NCBI GenBank assembly: GCA_030141605.1
Contig: JAQGDQ010000055.1
Coordinates: forward strand, 124,001 to 188,000
Source of the DNA: Tubiluchus corallicola
Taxonomy: Eukaryota; Priapulida; Priapulimorpha; Priapulimorphida; Tubiluchidae
DNA length: 64,000 nt
Reading direction: 5' to 3'
The notes beneath the pieces were generated by a model. The model saw only the letters and a program-made list of their open reading frames with translations. It made no database searches and was not told the origin of the DNA. Shown piece after piece: positions 21,401-40,200 of this stretch. A program made the translations under genes and the position numbers. The stretch's first letter is position 1. Every line of letters begins with the position of its first letter.

Positions 21401-24400
21401 ACAGATTACAACAATGGAGCATTACAATGTGACTGTAACATTGACGGGTCGTTGAGTTTCCAGTGCGAGGAATTTGGTGGTAGATGTTTCTGTAAGGACT
21501 ACGTGATTGGGCGAACGTGCTCCCAGTGCCAGTCCGGTTACTATGGATTTCCAGATTGCCAGTGTAAGCCACTTGATGACACGCAGAATTTTTTGTTTAG
21601 GCATGAAACTTGAGCGAATTGGTTTGCGATTTCTTTTATTTTATTTGTTTTTCTTAAAAATCTGTAAAAGTTAAAAGAAACGAATGGCTGTGATCAATTT
21701 ATTCTTTGTTTCTATCAGCCAGTATTAGATTTCTGCAATTTAGCACTTTGTAAGCCAATAGCCAGCAGTCACTGGGCATGGCGTAGTTAATAGTTTCATG
21801 ATTGCAGCGGGACTGGAATCTTTCTCATTTCTCTACAAAGAGACATCCGACCAGCAGAGACGTCTTAACCTTGTTTTGAAGTGATCTTCCCTCAGTGACA
21901 CAGCCAAAGGCAGTGTATCAGATTAAAGTGTTCTGAATCACTTTTCCCAGCAGTTACCCATCCATTTACTAACCAGGACTGATGTTATGTAACTTTTTAG
22001 GCTGGTACACCATGGCAGCCCAGCTATTTTTCTTCTCTCTTTCTCTCTCTCTCTCAAATAATGCATAAAAATCCTGTTGAACGTTTTGTTAAGGTGTTAT
22101 AGCTATCGGCCAGGCTATGTAATGATAAAATTATTATTATTAAAATAATATGATTAAGATAAGATTAAGATTAATGAACTTGTGCCATGGTTACAATCTG
22201 TGCACAAACTAAGTGTCATCCATAAGTGATTTTACAGGTTGTATGAATTAACACCTTGCGATAGTTTCGGCACTTTTGAGTCTGTATCGAAACCTTGCTT
22301 ATTTTTAAAAAGGTTTGCATAATTTTCAGAAACTGTTTTAAATTTTAATTTTGTTTTGTTTATTTTAATGTTTATATAACAATAGTAAAGTGTTCTACAG
22401 CATATAGACAGAGCAATATTAGTAGTGCTTTATAACTGTACTATAGTAAAGTAAAAAATTTAAAGTTGACTTAAAACTTCGGGGAATTAAACACAAATAG
22501 TGAACATTAGAGATGCAGTTAGTTATTTTCTTTAGCTTGTGACTGTCCAAATGGTGTCTGTGAGGAGACGACGGGAGCCTGCATTTGTCCTCCACATGTA
22601 ACAGGTGAACAATGCAACATATGTTTACCGGAAACCTTCGGTTACGATCCATTCATCGGGTGTGAAGAGTGCAAATGTGAGTTCTACGGAGTTGTGGATG
22701 GAAACATGGAGTGCGACCTCATTACAGGACAGTGCAAGTATGTACATTGATTTGTATGCTGACATTGCGATCCTTTAATCTCATTTGTTTAATCGTTGCT
22801 GTAGCAACCAGTTCTCGGTAAAATTGAGTAATACATAATTTTATGACACTTTTGAAGAAAAACCTGATGGGTGTTGCTGCAAAAAGGCATCCACTCATGT
22901 TCAAAATTTCAAATATTCCATTTTACAACTTCTTATATAGCAACGACTTATTTCAAATATGACAAACTTCTGTTTCTTTTTCACCTAATGACGCATGTCT
23001 CATTTATTGCATTTTATGCTCTAAGTCCCGAAATTTTGTTTGGTGCAAGTTCACATTTTGTAAAGAAGTCGCTACTAACGTCACAATGTAAGTATATGCT
23101 GTTGATTACAGGAGACTGTAAAATTTAATTCATTGTTAGTGCTTGCTTAAGTACCGTATATACTCGCATATAAGCCAAATTTAGAACTATAAAATACAAT
23201 ACTGAAATCAGGGGGTCAACTTATATGCGCATGAAACAAAATGAACACAAGGACAGACACATAATTAAACAGAAATGTTATAATTTTTTGTGAATAAATA
23301 GAAAACAAAATATTTTCTTCTTTATTCATATCAAAATGTATAATTTCTTCTATTTCTTCTAGTATGTAACATAAAAGTAAGCATTTTACATCTTTATAGT
23401 AAAAAATTTCCATGAACCAAAAATACCCAATTAACAAAATGTGACAAAAAGGGATCAATTTTGTTGATTGGTTATGGAGTAAAATTAGACAAGTTGATGG
23501 TCGGCTTATATACGGGTTTTTGCAAAAACTGGCCATTTTAAAGCAGTTTTAGGGGGTCGGCTTATATGCGATGTAGGCTTATATGCGAGTATATACAGTA
23601 GATGATTTGTCTTGTTTTTTGACCATTAGAATTTGATTATCTAATGTGTAGAAGAAGAAGAAAGACCCACATGCCCGATGAGTTTAGCATTGGAATAGAT
23701 GAATATGGCATCTATTTATGTTCCCTCAACACACAAGGATAGGTGGCTGGTCATCGCCCAGCCACCTTTCTTTCCCCAGTACATTACCGGGCACTTAACT
23801 GAGGTTGAGATGAGCTAGGAAGGTAGCCAGAGAGTCTCATATAAAAGTCCTATCACTAGAAACCTTTGGGTTGGCTTAAAACTCCATATACCACTAGGCC
23901 ACTGCTTTTAATATGTAGAAGTGGAGTTAACTGCATTCACTTACTTCTTCATAAATTGTATTCATGCTGTTGGAAAAACAATTCTGTATTATAAAAAAGT
24001 TTCTCAGCAAAATTACATGACTAGCATGAAACAGAGAAGAGAATCTTTCGTAAGAAATGAAATTATATATTTTAAAATTACTTAATGCTAGCAAAAGAGA
24101 GCAATATTTGTCTTAACTTATCCCAGGTAATAATAAAGACAGTTCAAAATTTTTTGTACAAGCTTCATAACATTTAAATAAAAATCCAAAACATGCAAAA
24201 TTACATTCACCCATAACTTCTGTTTTTAATTCTTCAACCAGAAGTCACTACACAAAAACACTCAATCTTATTAATTATGCGAACGGTCAATTTCGAATGA
24301 CCATCAACACATTACAAGAATGCAAAAAAACTAATCCAAGTAAGAAAGTGCAACACCAGCAAGCTCTTTTGCCGCCAGACTTAGTCAGAGCAAGTTGAAA

Positions 24401-27400
24401 GTTAATTAGCAAAAGGTTAGTTAATTAGCTGATTAATTTTTAAAAGCCTATATTTTTGAAGTTATTTGTGACTAGTGTTTCTAATTCATTATATGTGATC
24501 TACAAATGTATACCTATCAATTATCTGAGCAGCTTTTGTCACATTATTGGCTTTAATGAGTGAAAGTTTATCAATGCGCAATTGATTTTCAAAAGACTAA
24601 AATTTTGAAGCTATTCAGTTCTAATTCAGTGTACAACTTCTGTATTAATTTTTGCCTGAGTGATTGCAGACATATGAGAGAAAAACTAATTGTGTGGACA
24701 CTGGATGATGAATGTAAGATTCCGGAATGACATCTACTGTGACTGTATTTTTATTTTTGTGTTATCAGCTTTTACATTTATAACTCATCTCCATACATTA
24801 CATTATTTCTTATGAGAGGCGTGGCTTCATTTAAGAAGAGTTTGCTTAATAGTTCTTTTGCAGTAGGTGTATTAGCCACCGACCAAGCCAGGATTTACTG
24901 TGGTAGTTGTCAGAATCAAAGACTGGAGACATTGAGTTCATTTTAATGGAATAATGGCCAGATAGAGTAGAATAGCATAGAGTCCAGCAAGACCAAATAC
25001 TAGACGATAAATCGGACACTGTCTTGGTATAGAAATCATTATGTTTTATTCCTATGTTGCCACATTCCCACAACAGATGGCGTAGTTGTCAATGTTTTTT
25101 TGTAGCACAAAACGTTGTACCTATGCAGATGAATGCTTGTACCAACAGTGGTAAGCAGCAGTGCTGGCACTCCCACATATAAAGGAAGCCGCTTGTTAAC
25201 AATTATGCCAGTTAGCTGACATAACCTCCCAGTTAGTCTCCCACGACATATTCCATTATATGATGCATAATTATTGACGAAGACGCTGCATTGATATGCT
25301 TCTAGTATCATGAGCATATTGATTTCTGATCGTCTTTCGTGTAACCGATTAGATGTTAGCTTTACTTGGCCAGTGTAGAATCAGCTTAAGCAATACGCTC
25401 CCTTGCTAATTGTCTTAAGAAGTAGGACACTATTGGATAATATAGTCCCTTCGTTTGAAGCATTTTGTTTTTTGCCGTCTGTTAAAAGCACGAAATAATT
25501 CACTGAAATGGTACTGTTTTTCTGTCTCTTTTATAGTCGGTAATCTGCTTAGATATGTTGCTTTTAATGTGAAACTATAAGACAGGTGCTGCCCTCTCTG
25601 TATGCAGTGATTAGAGCATCACTATGAAAGGTGCTGATTCCATGGCTAGCTTTAGTGGATTTGTGTTAAGATTGTCACTATTTGATAAGCGCACATTCTT
25701 AACCCTTGCTTACTTTTCACGAATACATTAATGAGAAAATTGATTTCTTTGTATTAATTGAAGAAGAAATACTTTTCGCTGTTTTAAGCCTATAAACTCT
25801 ATAAATTTACGTTTGCAACCGTATAAAACAGTAAACATGATAAATGTTATTAGACATATAATCCCAATGGCAAATAGCAGTAATGCGCAAAAATTCCACA
25901 CAATGCCTTCGTAGCAAAATTTAATGATGTAAGAGAATGAAGACATCTTGGTTATTTCTTTATGATCCCAACACTGGAAGGTGAGGATTAAGCAACTAAA
26001 ATTTCTTCCATTTTTTAGTTCGTGCGTAAGATGTGATAATGTAGTTTTTAAATTTAATTACCAGCTAAAAGCCTGTAAATGTGCGAAAGATGCGGTTTAG
26101 TGCAAAAATGTCAAGATTGCATTTATGAGAATTTTGTGGATTAATTTAATGCTTAAACATATTATTAGCTGGAAAAATATAAGTTGGAACCTGTTACTAT
26201 TTTGTGTAGTAGCATGCCATGAGAATGCTACACAAACATTCTTGAGATACAATTAAATTCCATTGCTAGCGGCGTTACATTTCCATCGTTTCTCGTTCTC
26301 ATGAGTCTTCTTCAGGTCTGCTTCTCTGTGGAAGTCACTGATTGCTAGAGCATCGTTTTTTCTCGTTTGCAGTAGTAAATGTTGTGTGTATTTATTTATT
26401 TCGTCTTTATGCATGTGCAATGGGTGGATGAACGTTTCAGTTTCTGAAATATTACAAATTTAGCAATAACTAATCAATAAAAGTCGCAGGTGCATTTAAC
26501 TTTGTAATTTATATTCCTCCTTCAAGGTTCACCTGCTGATTACATAATTCACTGACAATTGATCCACGCTTCATTACCAAATGCAGATTTATTGTGCTGG
26601 CTAGCTAATAATACAATAACATCTCACAATAGCATAACTAGCTGGCTACATTTGGTTAATTCCTTGCAAAGTACTTAATTAGTGCTTGTGTTGATTGCGT
26701 GACTAAATTACGCCTCAGTAGCTGAACTGCATACATAATGTCCCATGCAAGTATGCATGAGAACAGTTTATATGCTGAAAATTACAGTCATTCTCAATCT
26801 AGTAATATACGTATTGGCATAATATGTATTTTAACACAAGTTTTTTTCAAATATTTTGTTATATAATACGTTTTTGAACCTGTGATGTTTAATAAATTAA
26901 AGCTTTTAAGCCACCACATTTTTCAATCAATGAAATTTTTTTGGAATAAAAGTCAGTGAATTCACTTGTTACTGGTTACATGAAAATTACAAATGTTGAT
27001 TCCACTGAAACAAGCATGAGTCACACGTGTGATTTTAGTGAGTTCATTTGCAGTTGTGTTAGACTAGTGTCTTTCGTATGCAGAGTATTTGCAGTTACAC
27101 TTCTGCGGACTAAAACAGCTTGTGAAGAGTAGTTTGAAGATTGTTGAAACCCTTTCTACTCCTTGGCTATAATCGAGTTATCTATTCTTGGCTTCATTTC
27201 ATACTGAATGGTCTTACAGTTGGTGTAATAACAAGCGCCAAGTGAGATTCTTATCAGCTGTTCTGGAATTAGCCTATTAATTTTGATGAAGTGACAATGA
27301 TACTCACTTTAAAGTTAATTAATCTTTTATTTTAAAAGCTCACACTTCCCATGGCAGTTTTAAGACATGTAGCAGCTAGTGGTGAGCAGTCTGCACCAGA

Positions 27401-29828
27401 AAGTGAATTTGAATCGAATCGAATTTGTGACTTTTAAATTTGAATCGAATTCGGATTGAGTTTGAAAGATTTTCAAACAAGTTTTCGAGCCACTAGTAAA
27501 AAGTGGCCTTACAAAGATCATGCATAGTACTTGATTTAGTTCTGCAGTAAAACCACTATAGTTTATTAAAAATTTTGCACAGAAACTGCAGCTAAATTGT
27601 GCTAATTGCATTCCGTTTCAAACATTTTAATGATAAAGAACTTATGTGGCTGAAGTGTTGAATTACTCGAATCTGTAAATTTAGGTTCGAATCGAATTTG
27701 AACGTTCGATGCTCACCCCTAGTAGCAGCCCAGTTCAGTGTTAGAGATGTTCTACTTCTCTCATAATGGCACTTCTTCACTTCTTGTCATAAATGAGTTT
27801 AAAGTCAACAAAATCATTTTGTCAATTTCTGTTCTTCAACTTTTATTGAAAGCAAAAACTGGCAAAATAATACTGAAAATTCACCAATAAATACATATGA
27901 ATCTTCAAAATAAAACGTAAGTTCGATTTGGTGGATTCTTGAACATAACATTAAAAAAAGCAAAATTTGCACAACTTGCTAAGATTAGCCAGTGGAGTAT
28001 TTAAAATGTTAGGCAAGATATTTATTGTAGAATTTCGTCAAACATTTAACAAAGCATGAAATATAGTTAACAACACACCTACTATATCATACTAATCATA
28101 AGCCACTTAAATGCCATGTATGAGAGCTTCACTGGCTAGAGATGATGAAAAGGTATTTCTGAGATTTTTAATACAACGATTTTCTATAATTATGGTAGTT
28201 TTTCTTTGTTATTTGTGCCTACCTTTTAGCCAGGTAAAATTGCACTTGCTAACACAAACACAGACACTTCGCAGTTTTGTTGAATGAATACATGTACAGC
28301 TTACGTTAATTTTGACTTTATGATTTCCCACTTAAGTGCTAGATCATTTTCACTTCAGTATACTTAATTTTTGTTTTTATGACACATTTTTTTACAAAAA
28401 TAATTTTTTCAATGCAGTTTGAAATAAATTTTGTTTGTTTGTTACTTTTTCTTACTGTCTCACTTCCTTCGATCAGCACGTTGGAGATTTTAGTAGCGCC
28501 GAATACTTCCTTTATTTTGCCAATGCCTCTCCTTTCTTTGCTCTTCATTTGTGCATCATATCTTGTTTTTACCATTTGAACTTTTATTTTGTAGATCGTA
28601 ATTTTTAGCGGTAGTAGTTGCCGTTTTTGAAAGTTCCTGGCTTTTACATTTTACAAGTCTTAATTTTACATACAGTACGCAAAAATTTCTCTGATATCGC
28701 AAGGTTTTGCACAGCACTCGTCGTATGCTCCACGGGTCACGCGCACCATCCCTGTACTCCGTCCTACCCTAAGAAAACTAAGCGCTGAGGGTCGATCTAG
28801 GAACGGTACCATGTTGTTCTGGTCGAACGCGTCAGTATCTTCGCCCCCTGGTTGATACCAGTCGTACGTGTCCCTGCTTTGAACATCATACACGTTTTTG
28901 CTACCTCCGTCATCTGCCAGGGAACGCTTGCCCTGATTGTTGAACTTCCCCCTGCAGACGAAACTGAACATTTGTGGTAACTTCTGACCGCACAACCGTG
29001 ACCGCGACGCGTGCACCTCGGCGATGACGACGATCATCATCAACAGCACACAACAACAGCCTGATTTTTGGCCACTCATATTTGGTCAGCCAAGTGATGA
29101 AATTTGTAGGTATTTGGCGGTACACGCGTCAGCGATGTGTGCCCAGAGGTTTGCTTGCTGCACACTTTTATGCAAGCTTTGTAAGTTTGTCAGATAGCAG
29201 CAGGAATTGAGCGCTACCACGCACAGAGGTAGTCATACTCATTGATTGATACATGTGTCGTAATGAAACTGAATACCAACAAGTACTAATTGCTTTGTCT
29301 AATATCCGCCCAATGTTCTTTGTCGGTAGCGCATCTGAATACGTCATTCCCTAAACTCAGCTATTTGCTTGGTTTGGCTTCTACGCATCATACATGCGTA
29401 ATCTATGTCTATGACAGGATGAAACCCTCGTGATTTGCTGGATTGCAAAGAATTGGAACTAGATTGGATTTTGTATTCAATGTTTTTTGTAATTCTAAAT
29501 TGCATATGATTTTTGGTGGTTTCTAGTAATTGCCTTGTTGTTCATCAGGGATCTTTCAAGCACAGTTATTTTTTTCAAGCTTCTTCCTTTTTTCATTTGA
29601 TATTTATTCAATGTCCATTTGTCTTACATTATTAAACTTTTTTGCAAGACTTTGGTCATTGTTACATCTCTCTTGTCATCATTTGCCCTTGTTTTTTATT
29701 TCGTTTCATCTTATCCTACCTTCTCTGTCTTCTCTTCACTTTTTTGTGTTTCTCTGTCTGTTCTTTCTCCTTTCCTTCTCTCCCTCCTGTCTCTCTCTCT
29801 ACTTCACTCCCTTCCTCCTCTCCCTTGC

Positions 29829-29883
<55 letters not shown>

Positions 29884-30070
29884 CTCTCTCTGTCTCTTTC
29901 TCTCTTTCTTTCTCACCCTCACTTTCTCTCACCCTCTCTTTTTCACCTTCACTCTCTCTCACCCTCTCTTTCTCACCCTCACTCTCTCATCCCTCTTTCT
30001 CACCCTCACTCTCTCTCTCTCTCTCTCACTCTGTCTCTCTTTCTTTCTCCCCCCTCTCTCTCTCTCTCTT

Positions 30071-30112
<42 letters not shown>

Positions 30113-31257
30113 CTCTCTCCTTTCTCTTTCTCTCTCTCTCTCTCGCAAATAAAAATTTTATACAAAACCTTTTTCGAAGGAAGCCACTTGCAAAGTAGAA
30201 ATTTTGACCAGGAATGGTTTTACAATGTGGAACGTGAAGTACAGAGTTTTCATATGAATGAAGTGACAGATAATGCTTTTAATCAACCATTTACTATGGC
30301 AGATGTAAAATTGGCTATTAAAAGATGAGAACTGTGTAATAAGGCTCTAGATAATGACGGTTGTCATCCTGCTTGTGCTAAAACATATGGGATTTTGGGC
30401 TAAAAGTCTGGTGATCAGTTTAGCAAATTTGTGCCTAGAATTGGGTGTATGGCCATGGCAAAAAACAAAAATTTCCTTTATTTGCAAATTCAAAAAGTAA
30501 TTTGAGAAATGTAGCATTAAGTGATTTTTCTTTTGAATATCTTACTGACAGCAAATTAGAAATAGAAAAATTTGTCAAAACTGTGTGGAAGAAAAAGACT
30601 CAATATTCAGAATAGATTGATGGTACGTCTGCAGATGTCATTTCACCTGAATTATCACCTCTAAACTTAGGGTTAAATAATCATGAACGTGATGCAGAAA
30701 TGACTGCACTTAATTTGTTGTTAAAAAGAGGCACACGCAGCCGACACGCTCTTTTCTGTATGTAGTTGGTGAAAGCAATACTGATTGTTGTAGTTGCGAT
30801 AATATATCTGTTCAAAAACCAGAACATCTAATTTACGTTAGTAAATGAAATAGATAGAAGGAATCTCATAATAATATTGCCAGCTATGGATTTGGGAACA
30901 ATCTTTACTGTAAGAGATAGGGGCACCAGCGACTTGTTTGGAAAAGTTGTACGAAATATTGTAAATACACAGATTTTGTCAAATTATCTCGTTTGTGGAT
31001 TTAAATTTTTTTTTATATTATGAATATAAAATACTTAATTTCGTTTTAATACTAGTGTTGTCATGTATGATCTTTAACAACTTTGTTTATCTGTCAGCTC
31101 ACATGTAAGAAATATCATATTATGTATATTTGTACATTAACTAGAACTGCTTTGAACTCTTGTCTTGTTATGATAACTTGCTTTGAAAATTATGTACATT
31201 TAATGTAAAATGTTATGTACTGCCTGCAAAATGAGGTATTTTTTTAAATAAAAGAGT

Positions 31258-31293
<36 letters not shown>

Positions 31294-34200
31294 CTCTCTC
31301 TTGTCTCCCCCCTGTCTCTTTCATGCCTTCCGTCTCTCATTCTCTCTGGAAACTTTAAACAGTCAACTCACTCTCCCGCCTACTCTCAGGCAATAACCTT
31401 TGATGATAGCTTAAGCACTTATAAGGTGTCTTGGTGCGGATTGTGCAACATTAACTAAGCTCATGAATCATACTGTTAATTACTCAGCTTGTAGCTACTA
31501 ACTACTACAATTTTCAGCAGTCCTATTATTATTTATAAGTAGGTTTTCAGTTATATAAAATAAAAATATTTTGCTCTGTCTATATGTACATATATACCAA
31601 GATGCTGTTGACGACCGTTATTGTTCATTTGAATTTGAGATAAAACCTAATAGTTAAACATGAAAGCAAAGCAACTATACAATGTGGAGATAGTCTGAGA
31701 TATTTTAAAGTGAAATGATGAGTCGATTGATGGCTTTTCATTTCTGTCCAGGCTTTTGATCTTTGGCATTATCTGGGTCTTAATTTAGTGCATTACAATG
31801 TTTTTACACACATTATATCCAAGATTTTGCATTTTCGCAGAGACCTCTTGACCACTTCCATCTCAGGTCTTAGATTTTTCCTGCATTAGTTTAATGTACT
31901 TGATACCAGGATGGTCAAAATTACAGCTTTGCTCAGTCCAAATAGCAGTAGGAATGACCTTGGCGTAAGGCCTAGGCCTGAGATCTTGACTTTTTCAATA
32001 AACTTGACTTTTTGTTCACAGCTATGTGAAATTTTAGATTAAATTCAATGCTAAAAAAGCAACCCTAACAATGATGATAATGACAACAATAATGACAACA
32101 GTTTGTGGCAACAATGATGAATAAGTTTTTATGATTTGCTATCATAATGGTGCTTTAAAAGGATGGCTTTGCTTTTTAGACAAATATGGTAATTTATAAA
32201 TAGTAAAATAGTAAACAACAAATAAGTAAATAAGTGTGTTGAAGTGAAGACTTCATTTAAACTTGCATATTCTCTGGAAGTTTTTTTGGACATTGAATAC
32301 TGATATCTTAAATTGTATCGTATTATACAGTCAGTTTATTGCTAAACGAATTTTTTGAAATTTTGGCAATTTACATTTTGAATCTTTTGAAAATCTGTCA
32401 AACATTTTTTCTTTCAGTTGTAAAGATCATGTTGTTGGTCGACAGTGTGACACTTGTGAGATAGGATTCTATGCTTACCCACACTGTGTTGAATGCTCGT
32501 GTAACTTGCAGGGCGTAACAGAGGAAATATGTGAGCAGGGAGATGGATCCTGTATATGTAAGGTGAGGACAAACAATGAATTTTTTGTTTTGAACTGAGT
32601 TTTAGTGCAAGGTCAGTGCTATATATAGTCGAGCAGCCGGTAACTTAGGTTCTAACCTATCTAGGTTGGTGACTAACTTAAAATAATGTTTTTTTTAATT
32701 TCCAGTTCGTTACTTTTAGCGTAATAATATGTCGAGCAGCAGGAGACTTGATTTCTATCTAGGTTGGTGACTAACTTAAAATAATGTTTTTTTTAATTTC
32801 CAGTTCGTTACTTTTAGCGTAATAATATGTCGAGCAGCAGGAGACTTGATTTCTATCTAGGTTGGTGACTAACTTAAAATAATGTTTTTTTTAATTTCCA
32901 GTTCGTTACTTTTAGCGTAATAATATGTCGAGCAGCAGGAGACTTGATTTCTATCTAGGTTGGTGACTAACTTAAAATAATGTTTTTTTTAATTTCCAGT
33001 TTGTTACTTTTAACGTAATAATATGTCGAGCAGCAGGTGACTTGATTTCTATCTAGCTGAATTAATGTGCTAAATAATGCACTTAATCTGTGATGGTGTA
33101 AGTGGGATGTGCGCTGTTGATCTGGTGAACATCCTGTTTTATCCCTAATAAAAATTTCGTAGAAGCTGACAATGTCACCCTTCTAAATTTGTATGGGTGA
33201 GAGCAAACAACAATGAAAAACTACGAAAATTATAACATTAGATAATAAGTTTTTAATGTAAATCGTTTAGAAAATACCTTCACTTCGTATATTTTATACG
33301 TAGATTATTTTGTACTATGGTTGAAAATTGGATACAGTTTTTGTTTAAACCAGCCCAGCTTTGCTGTTACATTCTACCACTGTAGTTCGTGTACTCAAAT
33401 GAATTTCTCTTGTTGCTAATTACACTGTCTAGCTAACTTTTTGATTACACCGGCTTGTGTAGAATTCCTGCGAAGCTTTTCTATGTGCCTTGATCAAGCT
33501 AATTTGTTTTTTATGGACCATTGTATCCTAAAAGCCGCTTGAGACTCGTTCATTCATTCAGACTAGTGTAAGAACAGCTATGTCAATACGACAATGCTGC
33601 AGCAGTGCTACATGCAAATAGCGCCTTTGTAAACACCATACCTTTGTGTTGACAAGTTGACAAAATATCAGGAAATGAATATCAAGTGATGCAGAAACAG
33701 ATTTCCTGTTACCTAGTGATACGGTTTCATACGGTTAATGTTGTGCAGTAGTATGTAGTCTCATTACTTCTTCGGGTGGTCTGTATTATGCTGAGTTTAT
33801 TTATAATTATAGCCACTCGTATGTGCCTTTTCATGGTGTATCATGCACAGGAATTGCCCTACTCATTATTTGCATATGGCAAAATTGACAGTTAATGTTC
33901 TAGCAAAAGCATAGTAATTGAAACCGAAATTAATATTGCAGCATTAAAGATAAAATAGGTTCTATATAAAATAGCAAATTCAGTTAACTCAATTTAAATG
34001 AGCAATATTAATTTGTGGCTTCATGTACCCCTGATGCCCAGTTTCACATGAAGCCAAGGACAACATTTGCATGAATTTCAAACGAGCTAATAAAATTTAC
34101 TTTCCAAACAAGACGAGGTCTCCGGACTTATTATTCTGAAACATAGTTAAGATCATAATGTTTGGCAGAGAAAATAACATCATAACCTGGCTTTCAAAGT

Positions 34201-37200: not shown

Positions 37201-40200
37201 ACATTGTTTACCTAGGTCACTTCCTACGGAACAAGGTTAACTTACACCATTCTACACATGCTGCCTGAGGACATGGATACATATAGAGTCATCACCGCTG
37301 ATGTCATACTTACAGTAAGTTTTCGTGTGTGAAGTTCAAATTTTAAGTTACACTAAGCAATTACTCTTATAGGGATAAACAATTTGTATCAGTGATTTGA
37401 ATAGCCTGTGGTCATGTGAAGACACTGTTTATCACATGTCTTAAAGTAAAAGCCCAGAAATTAATCGATTTTGCTTACGCCAATTGCTTTATATATGCAA
37501 TTCAGCGATCGTGCTGTCATTCACTGGTGACGTCATGGCAGGACTCTTGAAAAGACTGCCACCACTGCTTGTTGCTTTAGTACATCTATCTGCTACACAA
37601 ATTACACAACACAAAAACACACTTCTGTACTTCCAAAAAGTTTAACGTGCGACAGCTCGTCGGCCTGATGGGATAAGTAAACAAAACACAGGTGCAGACA
37701 TCCCTTAATGCTTTTCGGACTGTCATCCTTATCCTGCCAGGACATCACTCACTACATGTAACCGAAGTTTGGCGAGTGCAGATACAACACCGCAAATGCT
37801 CAAATTGATGAGATGTAACATGTTTTATTAATTAATTCATGTAGTTGCACGCATAAAAACTGGTGTATTCGATTTAATTATTTCTTTTCTGCTTAAGTTG
37901 TTGGTTTTCATATTTATAAAAATGACTCGGCATTTACTTTATAATCCTAGTATATGTTCAACTTGTCTTGTTGCATAGATTGAACAGTAGCAATTTTGTT
38001 ATTGTTATCATTCGATTCCTGTAGGATGAACATTAGCTTGTATATTTTTTTGTCATTTGTGGCTGTGTTTTATGCAGGGTCGCAACATGTCGCTGTTTTT
38101 TACGAATTTCGACCAACCAGAGCCGAATAAGGAAATGGAACTTGGCGTAAAGCTTGTTGAGGTGGGTTTCTATGATTTTTTCATTTGCAGAGATACACAT
38201 GTAGCATTCTACTGCAGGACTAGAGTTATTACTTTCTTTATAATTGTCTTATTTTAAAGCAAAACCGGACCCAATGTTAAACTGTAGGTCAAAACAACCT
38301 GTTATTTAAAATATTGAAAGTAAACATACTATTTTTTAAAGAATGACTTACGTTTAAGAATTACCACTCAAATGCAATTTCGCGTTCGTGCCACTAGTTC
38401 TTGCTGTTACATGCATTTCGCCATGGGCACTAGCGCCTGCATTTCGGAAAGTGTTGCACAAAAACAGGTGCTGTACTCTCAGTGCAGATATGTTAGTTTG
38501 TGATGAACTGCACACATTCTGCAGGTCATCCATGCACACAGCGGTAATTTAAAAATTCAATTTTTATCTTAAAACTTGCAGGGTTTTTTAAACAACACAG
38601 TGAATGTCTTACAGTACCACTGTACTCCAAGTTTCGCTTTCACAAACACATGCAACACGCTCGTGGAATATTTTTGCTGTTGAAAATTATGTTAGTTGTC
38701 ATCAATAGTTGGGCTCATCTGCCATCAATTAAGTTTTTAATCTATTATTTGATTATCAGAAATGCTTTTGCAGTATTTATTGTGTTAAAATGTATACTAT
38801 TTAGCGTACTTGAAAATGGGGTAGTATATGAAAAATCGTCCTGTCTTCCTTTAAGTTTAAATTTATGGTAATGCAGCAGTGTCTTGTGTTACTGATGCAC
38901 TTCTTGTGATGGCTTCCTTAATCAGACTTCACTGTTTCTACATTAGTCCAATGTAATCACGGTCGAAGCTTGTTAAAACGCCAGGTCTGAGACACCACTA
39001 TATATGGCGGGGTTGGCGGTAAGGCGAGCTTCATCAACTGTCAAAGCGTAGTGTTGTGCAAGTCGATTTTGTTTCCTAAGCAATTTTTATATGTGATAAA
39101 TAGGTGGAGTGTAGAGTATTATTATACCTATGTGTTACACTACACTGTTTTGCTGCGTTAACAATGCAGGTGTAGTTTTCGATACCTTGCAAAACCTTTA
39201 CATGACACAACATGGAGAAGCACTCTTGTGAAATGCTAATAATTAGCCTACTGCTGATAAGAGAAATATGCAGCCAGGTGACCCACCCATAACGTAACAT
39301 TACTGCACAATTAGACTATAAATAGCTGCCGCTAACTTGACATTGAGCCATAACTTGACATTGAATGCCGCACGTAACCTGACCTTGAACAAACAGCAGT
39401 TTTAACAACTTTTAAATTCACATCAGTTCAGTACTAAAGCTTACATACACAACTCTTGTACTCTTAAAACGCATGCTCCTTGCTCAAAACCTTAATATTC
39501 ACTTTCATACAGTCACTTGGTATGAAACCTAAATCTTAACTTAAACACCATAATTGCTTTGCTGTTCAGAGGTCATTGTTTTTACAACACATTGGCTGTT
39601 TTTCAGCTGTAATTCATTGTGCTTTATCTTGGCTGGCATTACAACGGGGCGGGGGGAGGGAGGTATAATGAAATTCGACTGTAAATAGTTAAGTTATAAT
39701 TTATAAAGATAAATAGAGATAAAAGATAAATAACAAAATACGTGTTTCTTTCGCCCTGATGAGGAGAAATTATTCCAATGGTAATTTGGAAATAAACTGT
39801 TTAATTATTAACCATATGTGATAGATGAGGCCTTGGTTCCTTGTAGGCATCAAGTCCCAGTTTGCCGTTCAATTTTTTCACTGTTTTTGTTCCATTCAAT
39901 TCAATTCAAAAGGGTTTATTTATCTCGAATATAATATTTATGGTGCAAATGCAACAAATTATGTAAAGTGTGTAGAGATTATTCAATTATGGAAGTTCTA
40001 TGTCTTTCTTAGAACTTAATGAAACATATTATTAATAAAGTGTATGCACTTACGCATCCGTAGTAGGTTCAAATGGTGTTCACTGAATTGTATTTTACAG
40101 ACTAACTTTGTACACGCTGATGGTACTGAAGCTACGAGAGAACAGTTGATGATGGTCCTGTCTCATCTGGATGCTTTGCTGATCCGTGCCACATATTATA

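Follow-up and report, generated by a model that had tools for sequence, protein, structure and literature searches.

An uninterrupted insulin-like gene lying antisense within a laminin intron of Tubiluchus corallicola

The insulin-like gene and its laminin host

In the stretch of Tubiluchus corallicola DNA analysed here (64,000 nucleotides, referred to as the window), direct reading of the sequence revealed a single 137-codon frame, from ATG to stop, on the minus strand at positions 28666 to 29079. The frame encodes an insulin-like precursor and lies within an intron of a laminin gene carried by the plus strand. The features of both genes are given below in window coordinates; C1776 denotes an intron-bearing gene of the same family found elsewhere in the genome.

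22523..22737, plus strand: open frame with the upstream laminin exon (LE domain), exon start not fixed exactly; from Pfam and the splice join
22738..32417, plus strand: host laminin intron, phase 2, GT...AG, 9,680 nt; from splice reconstruction
32418..32595, plus strand: open frame with the downstream laminin exon (LE domain), exon end not fixed exactly; from Pfam and the splice join
29167..29172, minus strand: TATA-like CATAAA, 93 nt 5' of the ATG; consensus match only
28666..29079, minus strand: CDS of the insulin-like precursor, 137 aa, one open frame; from sequence and Pfam
29008..29079, minus strand: signal peptide, residues 1-24, cleavage predicted by eye after VHA; from hydropathy, site inferred
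28933..29007, minus strand: B chain, residues 25-49, C-x11-C; from sequence and Pfam
28924..28932, minus strand: GKR processing site at the boundary of B chain and C peptide; from sequence
28732..28923, minus strand: C peptide, with a furin-type RVTR at its end; from sequence
28807..28920, minus strand: 38 codons from KRS to PFL, 36 more than in C1776, at the position of the C1776 phase-1 intron
28756..28806, minus strand: tail of the C peptide, PFLxxxxALxFxxxGRS, with homology to the first part of C1776 exon 2; 0/5000 shuffles
28669..28731, minus strand: A chain, residues 117-137, CC-x3-C-x8-C; from sequence, Pfam and a PDB match
28583..28588, minus strand: AATAAA poly(A) signal, 77 nt past the stop, with a second at 149 nt; consensus match only

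A preliminary description of this DNA had claimed a complete and uninterrupted insulin-family precursor at this site. Coordinates, strand, ATG, stop, and motifs all agreed with that claim, the protein matched the Pfam Insulin profile (PF00049), and the B, C, and A segments were contained in the one 137-codon ORF. The six-cysteine pattern was complete in both chains, and sequence and hydropathy together placed a signal peptide at the N terminus and basic cleavage sites on both sides of the C peptide. Hydropathy reached its 13-residue maximum (3.25) at residues 8 to 20. The Gly of the GKR site suggests that C-terminal amidation of the B chain is possible. The GC content of the frame was 0.52, against 0.44 in the preceding 200 nt, 0.36 in the following 200 nt, and 0.35 on average across the window.

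Pfam comparison of 10 plus-strand frames gave matches to laminin-EGF or laminin G for 7 and to nothing for the other 3, and laminin-domain frames were present on both sides of the insulin-like gene. The laminin G domain fits an alpha chain. When position 22737 was joined to 32418, an unbroken LE domain was restored (GQC-N-CKDHVVGRQC), so that no exon need be missing between them. The antisense nesting within a laminin intron that had been proposed was thus upheld, since the flanking exons rejoin within one laminin-EGF domain. The further claim that this is the largest laminin intron stood in part: it was the largest among the modelled gaps, except for the region from 8.2 to 21.3 kb, which has further exon-like frames. 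The hormone gene has, 0.7 kb upstream and in the same intron, a (TC)n dinucleotide array of about 370 nt (29777-30144). Elsewhere in the window, frames near 38358, 46160, 57944, and 63647 carried peptide strings that were similar by eye, which suggests an interspersed repeat.

Paralogues and the missing C-peptide intron

The contigs of the animal's own 343.5-Mb assembly were searched with the PF00049 profile (E values up to 10), and seven matches were obtained on six contigs, with those on C627 and C1717 falling under the Pfam cut-off. Exon junctions of the paralogues, named here by contig, were read from the sequence. Two genes were intronless (the window gene and C380), three had both exons (C1776, C24, and C1717), and one was represented by a B exon alone (C627).

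C380:17653-18147 (1495-1989 of the extracted locus), minus strand: a further insulin-like gene without introns, the sister of the window gene
C24, 608 and 5221 of the extracted locus, minus strand: intron-bearing insulin gene
C1717, 6895 and 7794 of the extracted locus, minus strand: relaxin-type gene, CCHIGC A chain, phase-1 C-peptide intron
C627:8990-9073: B-chain exon with a phase-1 donor

The junctions of C1776, C24, and C1717 were all phase 1 and lay in the C peptide or, for C24, directly before the A chain. If the B exon of C24 joins its A exon directly, the C peptide would be four residues (TQNK); the C-peptide tail was searched for between the two C24 exons and was not found. Likewise, no A exon of C627 was found over the 9 kb up to the contig end. 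When the window protein was compared with the genome, there were three matches: the window gene itself, C380 at E = 3.8e-11 over residues 12-136, and C1776, where exon 2 matched at E = 0.72. An unrooted tree of eight sequences over 37 core columns grouped the window gene with C380 (0.88), then with C24 (0.94), and then with C1776 (0.874). C1717 paired with human relaxin-2 (0.985), and human insulin was nearer to this pair (0.676). In both intronless genes, a Gly precedes the basic site that ends the B chain (QGKR in the window gene, FGR in C380), which suggests an amidated B chain; this Gly is absent in the four intron-bearing paralogues seen.

The window gene lacks the phase-1 C-domain intron typical of the family: its frame is uninterrupted, and the segment homologous to the sequence after that intron is read in the same frame. 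The C peptide of the window gene, taken from PFL onward, aligned over 23 columns to the start of C1776 exon 2 with a score of 51, which was reached in 0/5000 shuffles. The C-peptide similarity between the window gene and C380 was not significant by itself (552/5000 shuffles), and that between the C380 tail and C1776 was weak (82/5000 shuffles). Intron loss had been put forward in the preliminary description as one explanation of the uninterrupted frame, and the search for intron-containing paralogues in the same genome bore it out, since C1776, C24, and C1717 carry the intron. If the root is placed near the relaxins, the sister pair groups inside the intron-bearing genes, so that its loss of the intron looks derived. 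It is a loss relative to these three genes, none of which is singled out as the parent. Moreover, because the C380 sister is intronless as well, the loss most simply predates their duplication; the intron would have been lost once, ahead of the duplication that gave the pair, and one copy would later have come to lie in the laminin intron.

It is also possible, if doubtful, that the window copy is itself a retrogene, the mRNA of an insulin gene having been reverse-transcribed into the laminin intron. The gene is intronless and sits in another gene's intron, and the host intron gave no blastn match to the C380 flanks, as this reading would have it. However, the sister is intronless too, and the two genes are deeply divergent, with 24/37 core residues in common and a pS of 0.88. 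Direct repeats of at least 10 nt between 28200 and 29500 fell into three families, each on one side of the gene, so that none brackets it, and no poly-A tract was seen near the gene by eye, although such marks decay. The earlier suggestion that the window copy was born by retroposition thus found no hallmark to support it, and an ancient retroposition that produced the common ancestor of the pair is plausible. A blastn search of the host intron against 20 extracted loci of the genome, with the window's own copy left out, gave no match at an E value of 1e-3 and thus no sign of segmental duplication. In the 38 kb surrounding C380, nothing laminin-like was seen by eye among open frames of at least 55 aa with a GC content above 0.42.

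Relative to C1776, the window gene has 36 extra codons and C380 has 29, located at the C1776 intron position. They may have been inserted, may be retained from an ancestral C peptide that was already long, or may be an old intron that turned into coding sequence. The GC content of the extra segment in the window gene is not intron-like: segment 28785-28904 has a value of 0.51, which is reached by 1.8% of 120-nt windows, against a mean of 0.35 for the whole stretch. We considered it unlikely that a former intron lost its splice sites and stayed in frame as a new C peptide. If this were true, the pair would exemplify the conversion of an intron into an exon in a hormone gene.

Family assignment and evidence for a working gene

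The PF00049 match covered residues 28-136 (E = 9.3e-8; 33.4 bits versus a cut-off of 23), so that the profile check against the insulin family gave a result above the cut-off across both chains. The best of 15 PDB sequences (E values up to 10) was the A chain of Drosophila DILP1 (9ef1_D; E = 9.3e-4), with which the window gene has YDECC...YC in common; this match is short (24 residues), and orthology is not claimed. The pattern C-x11-C...CC-x3-C-x8-C occurred in one open frame once in the window and in 0 of 60 first-order Markov sequences of 64 kb. ORF length alone was unremarkable, since 7 of 40 random 64-kb sequences contained an ATG ORF that long. AlphaFold, run on the precursor without an alignment, gave a mean pLDDT of 37.8 and no usable model.

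Over the 37 core columns, the window gene was identical to human IGF-1 at 17, to human insulin and to C1717 at 12 each, and to human relaxin-2 at 10. Its placement in the unrooted tree leans to the insulin/IGF side; human insulin, however, lies nearer to the relaxin pair. A relaxin-type peptide, acting on a leucine-rich-repeat GPCR, would belong to the same superfamily, a gene of that type is present in this genome on C1717, and the core identity to C1717 equals that to human insulin. Yet the identity to human IGF-1 exceeds that to human relaxin-2, the pair of C1717 and human relaxin-2 is separate from the group that holds the window gene, and the window B chain is without R-x-x-x-R-x-x-I/V, the relaxin-type B-chain motif. 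A relaxin-type assignment was thus judged very unlikely.

In the preliminary description, function had been deduced from the intact frame alone. This deduction was strengthened by comparison with the C380 sister over 42 codons of both chains, in which pN was 0.23 and pS was 0.88, with pN equal to or above pS in 0/2000 bootstraps; because pS is near saturation, the ratio is rough, and its direction was used rather than its value. Different codons were found at 13 of the 25 identical residues. The comparison with C1776 was weaker (pN = 0.48; pS = 0.70; pN at least equal to pS in 116/2000 bootstraps), and for C380 versus C1776 the corresponding count was again 0/2000. These values favor the window gene and its sister being two working genes, and the window gene is probably a working member of the insulin family. 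The positions of the TATA-like box and the AATAAA signals are those that a short gene without splicing would be expected to have. At C380, a search of the 400 bases on either side for promoter and poly(A) patterns found none, so that these consensus matches at the window gene may be due to chance.

That the frame is intact by chance, in a recently dead gene or an assembly artefact, was considered highly improbable. Transcription of the window gene is a prediction, and C380 is without promoter and poly(A) patterns, both of which would suit this reading; against it, the 137 codons are intact with all cysteines and processing sites kept, and the synonymous bias versus C380 is strong. The least probable alternative was that the gene is not intronless and that splicing still removes a short intron, in frame and phase-matched, from the C peptide. 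A GT at 28904 is in phase 1 like the family intron; AGs in matching phase follow after 57 and 66 nt, ahead of the conserved tail, and among the pairs noted a phase-0 pair spans 75 nt. However, the 28904 donor fits 3 of 7 consensus positions, the acceptor pyrimidine tracts are poor, the GC content of 28785-28904 is that of few 120-nt windows, as given above, and all 17 gaps that separate neighbouring laminin exon frames, where these were recognised, measure at least 246 nt. In addition, because the tail from PFL aligns with C1776 exon 2, the acceptor-like AGs at 28785 and 28797 sit within conserved coding sequence.

Proposed pathway and relation to known insulin-family genes

Taken as a whole, we consider it probable that the window holds a working gene for an insulin/IGF-type peptide hormone, the ancestor of which lost the C-peptide intron of the family. 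From the TATA-like box and poly(A) signal, the gene would have a promoter of its own and give an unspliced mRNA in the orientation opposite to laminin. The precursor would enter the secretory route and be cut at GKR and RVTR, with removal of the C peptide. The mature peptide, with its six cysteines presumably paired as in insulin, would act via an insulin-type receptor tyrosine kinase.

The bombyxins of Bombyx mori are, like the product of the window gene, insulin-family members whose B-C-A precursors are encoded without introns. All 38 genes first cloned, 37 of which were sequenced, are said to be intronless in one account (PMC8157905), and a later review describes most, not all, bombyxin genes in this way (PMC3745042). 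Since bombyxin genes are already intronless, this state in the window gene is not new. The bombyxin genes are clustered, whereas the window gene is a single copy that lies within a laminin intron in antisense orientation, and its one sister is on a different contig; no sequence relation to the bombyxins in particular was shown. In ambulacrarians, every type of insulin-related gene is described as having the phase-1 C-domain intron (PMC8286064), and several bilaterians are described as having it in their relaxin- and Dilp7-type genes (PMC11863921). These genes have the same B-C-A precursor as the window gene, and their phase-1 intron is common to the paralogues found here but absent in the window gene and C380. 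The Pinctada insulin-like gene is given as having four exons (PMC6965660), and the IGF genes of Aedes aegypti and the honeybee are described with further coding exons; unlike these IGF genes, the window gene is coded by a single exon, which stops one residue past the last cysteine. Searches of the open-licence PMC library brought up no earlier description of an insulin gene inside a laminin gene. Intronless insulin genes are thus already known and the placement inside laminin is unusual, and the novelty is modest, below the estimate in the preliminary description.

Besides the bombyxins, the T. corallicola pair gives the insulin family a further case of apparently derived intron loss, in a genome that holds paralogues both with and without the intron. 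If the window gene is expressed, it would bear on how a hormone gene functions within a large basement-membrane host gene whose transcription passes over it in the reverse direction.
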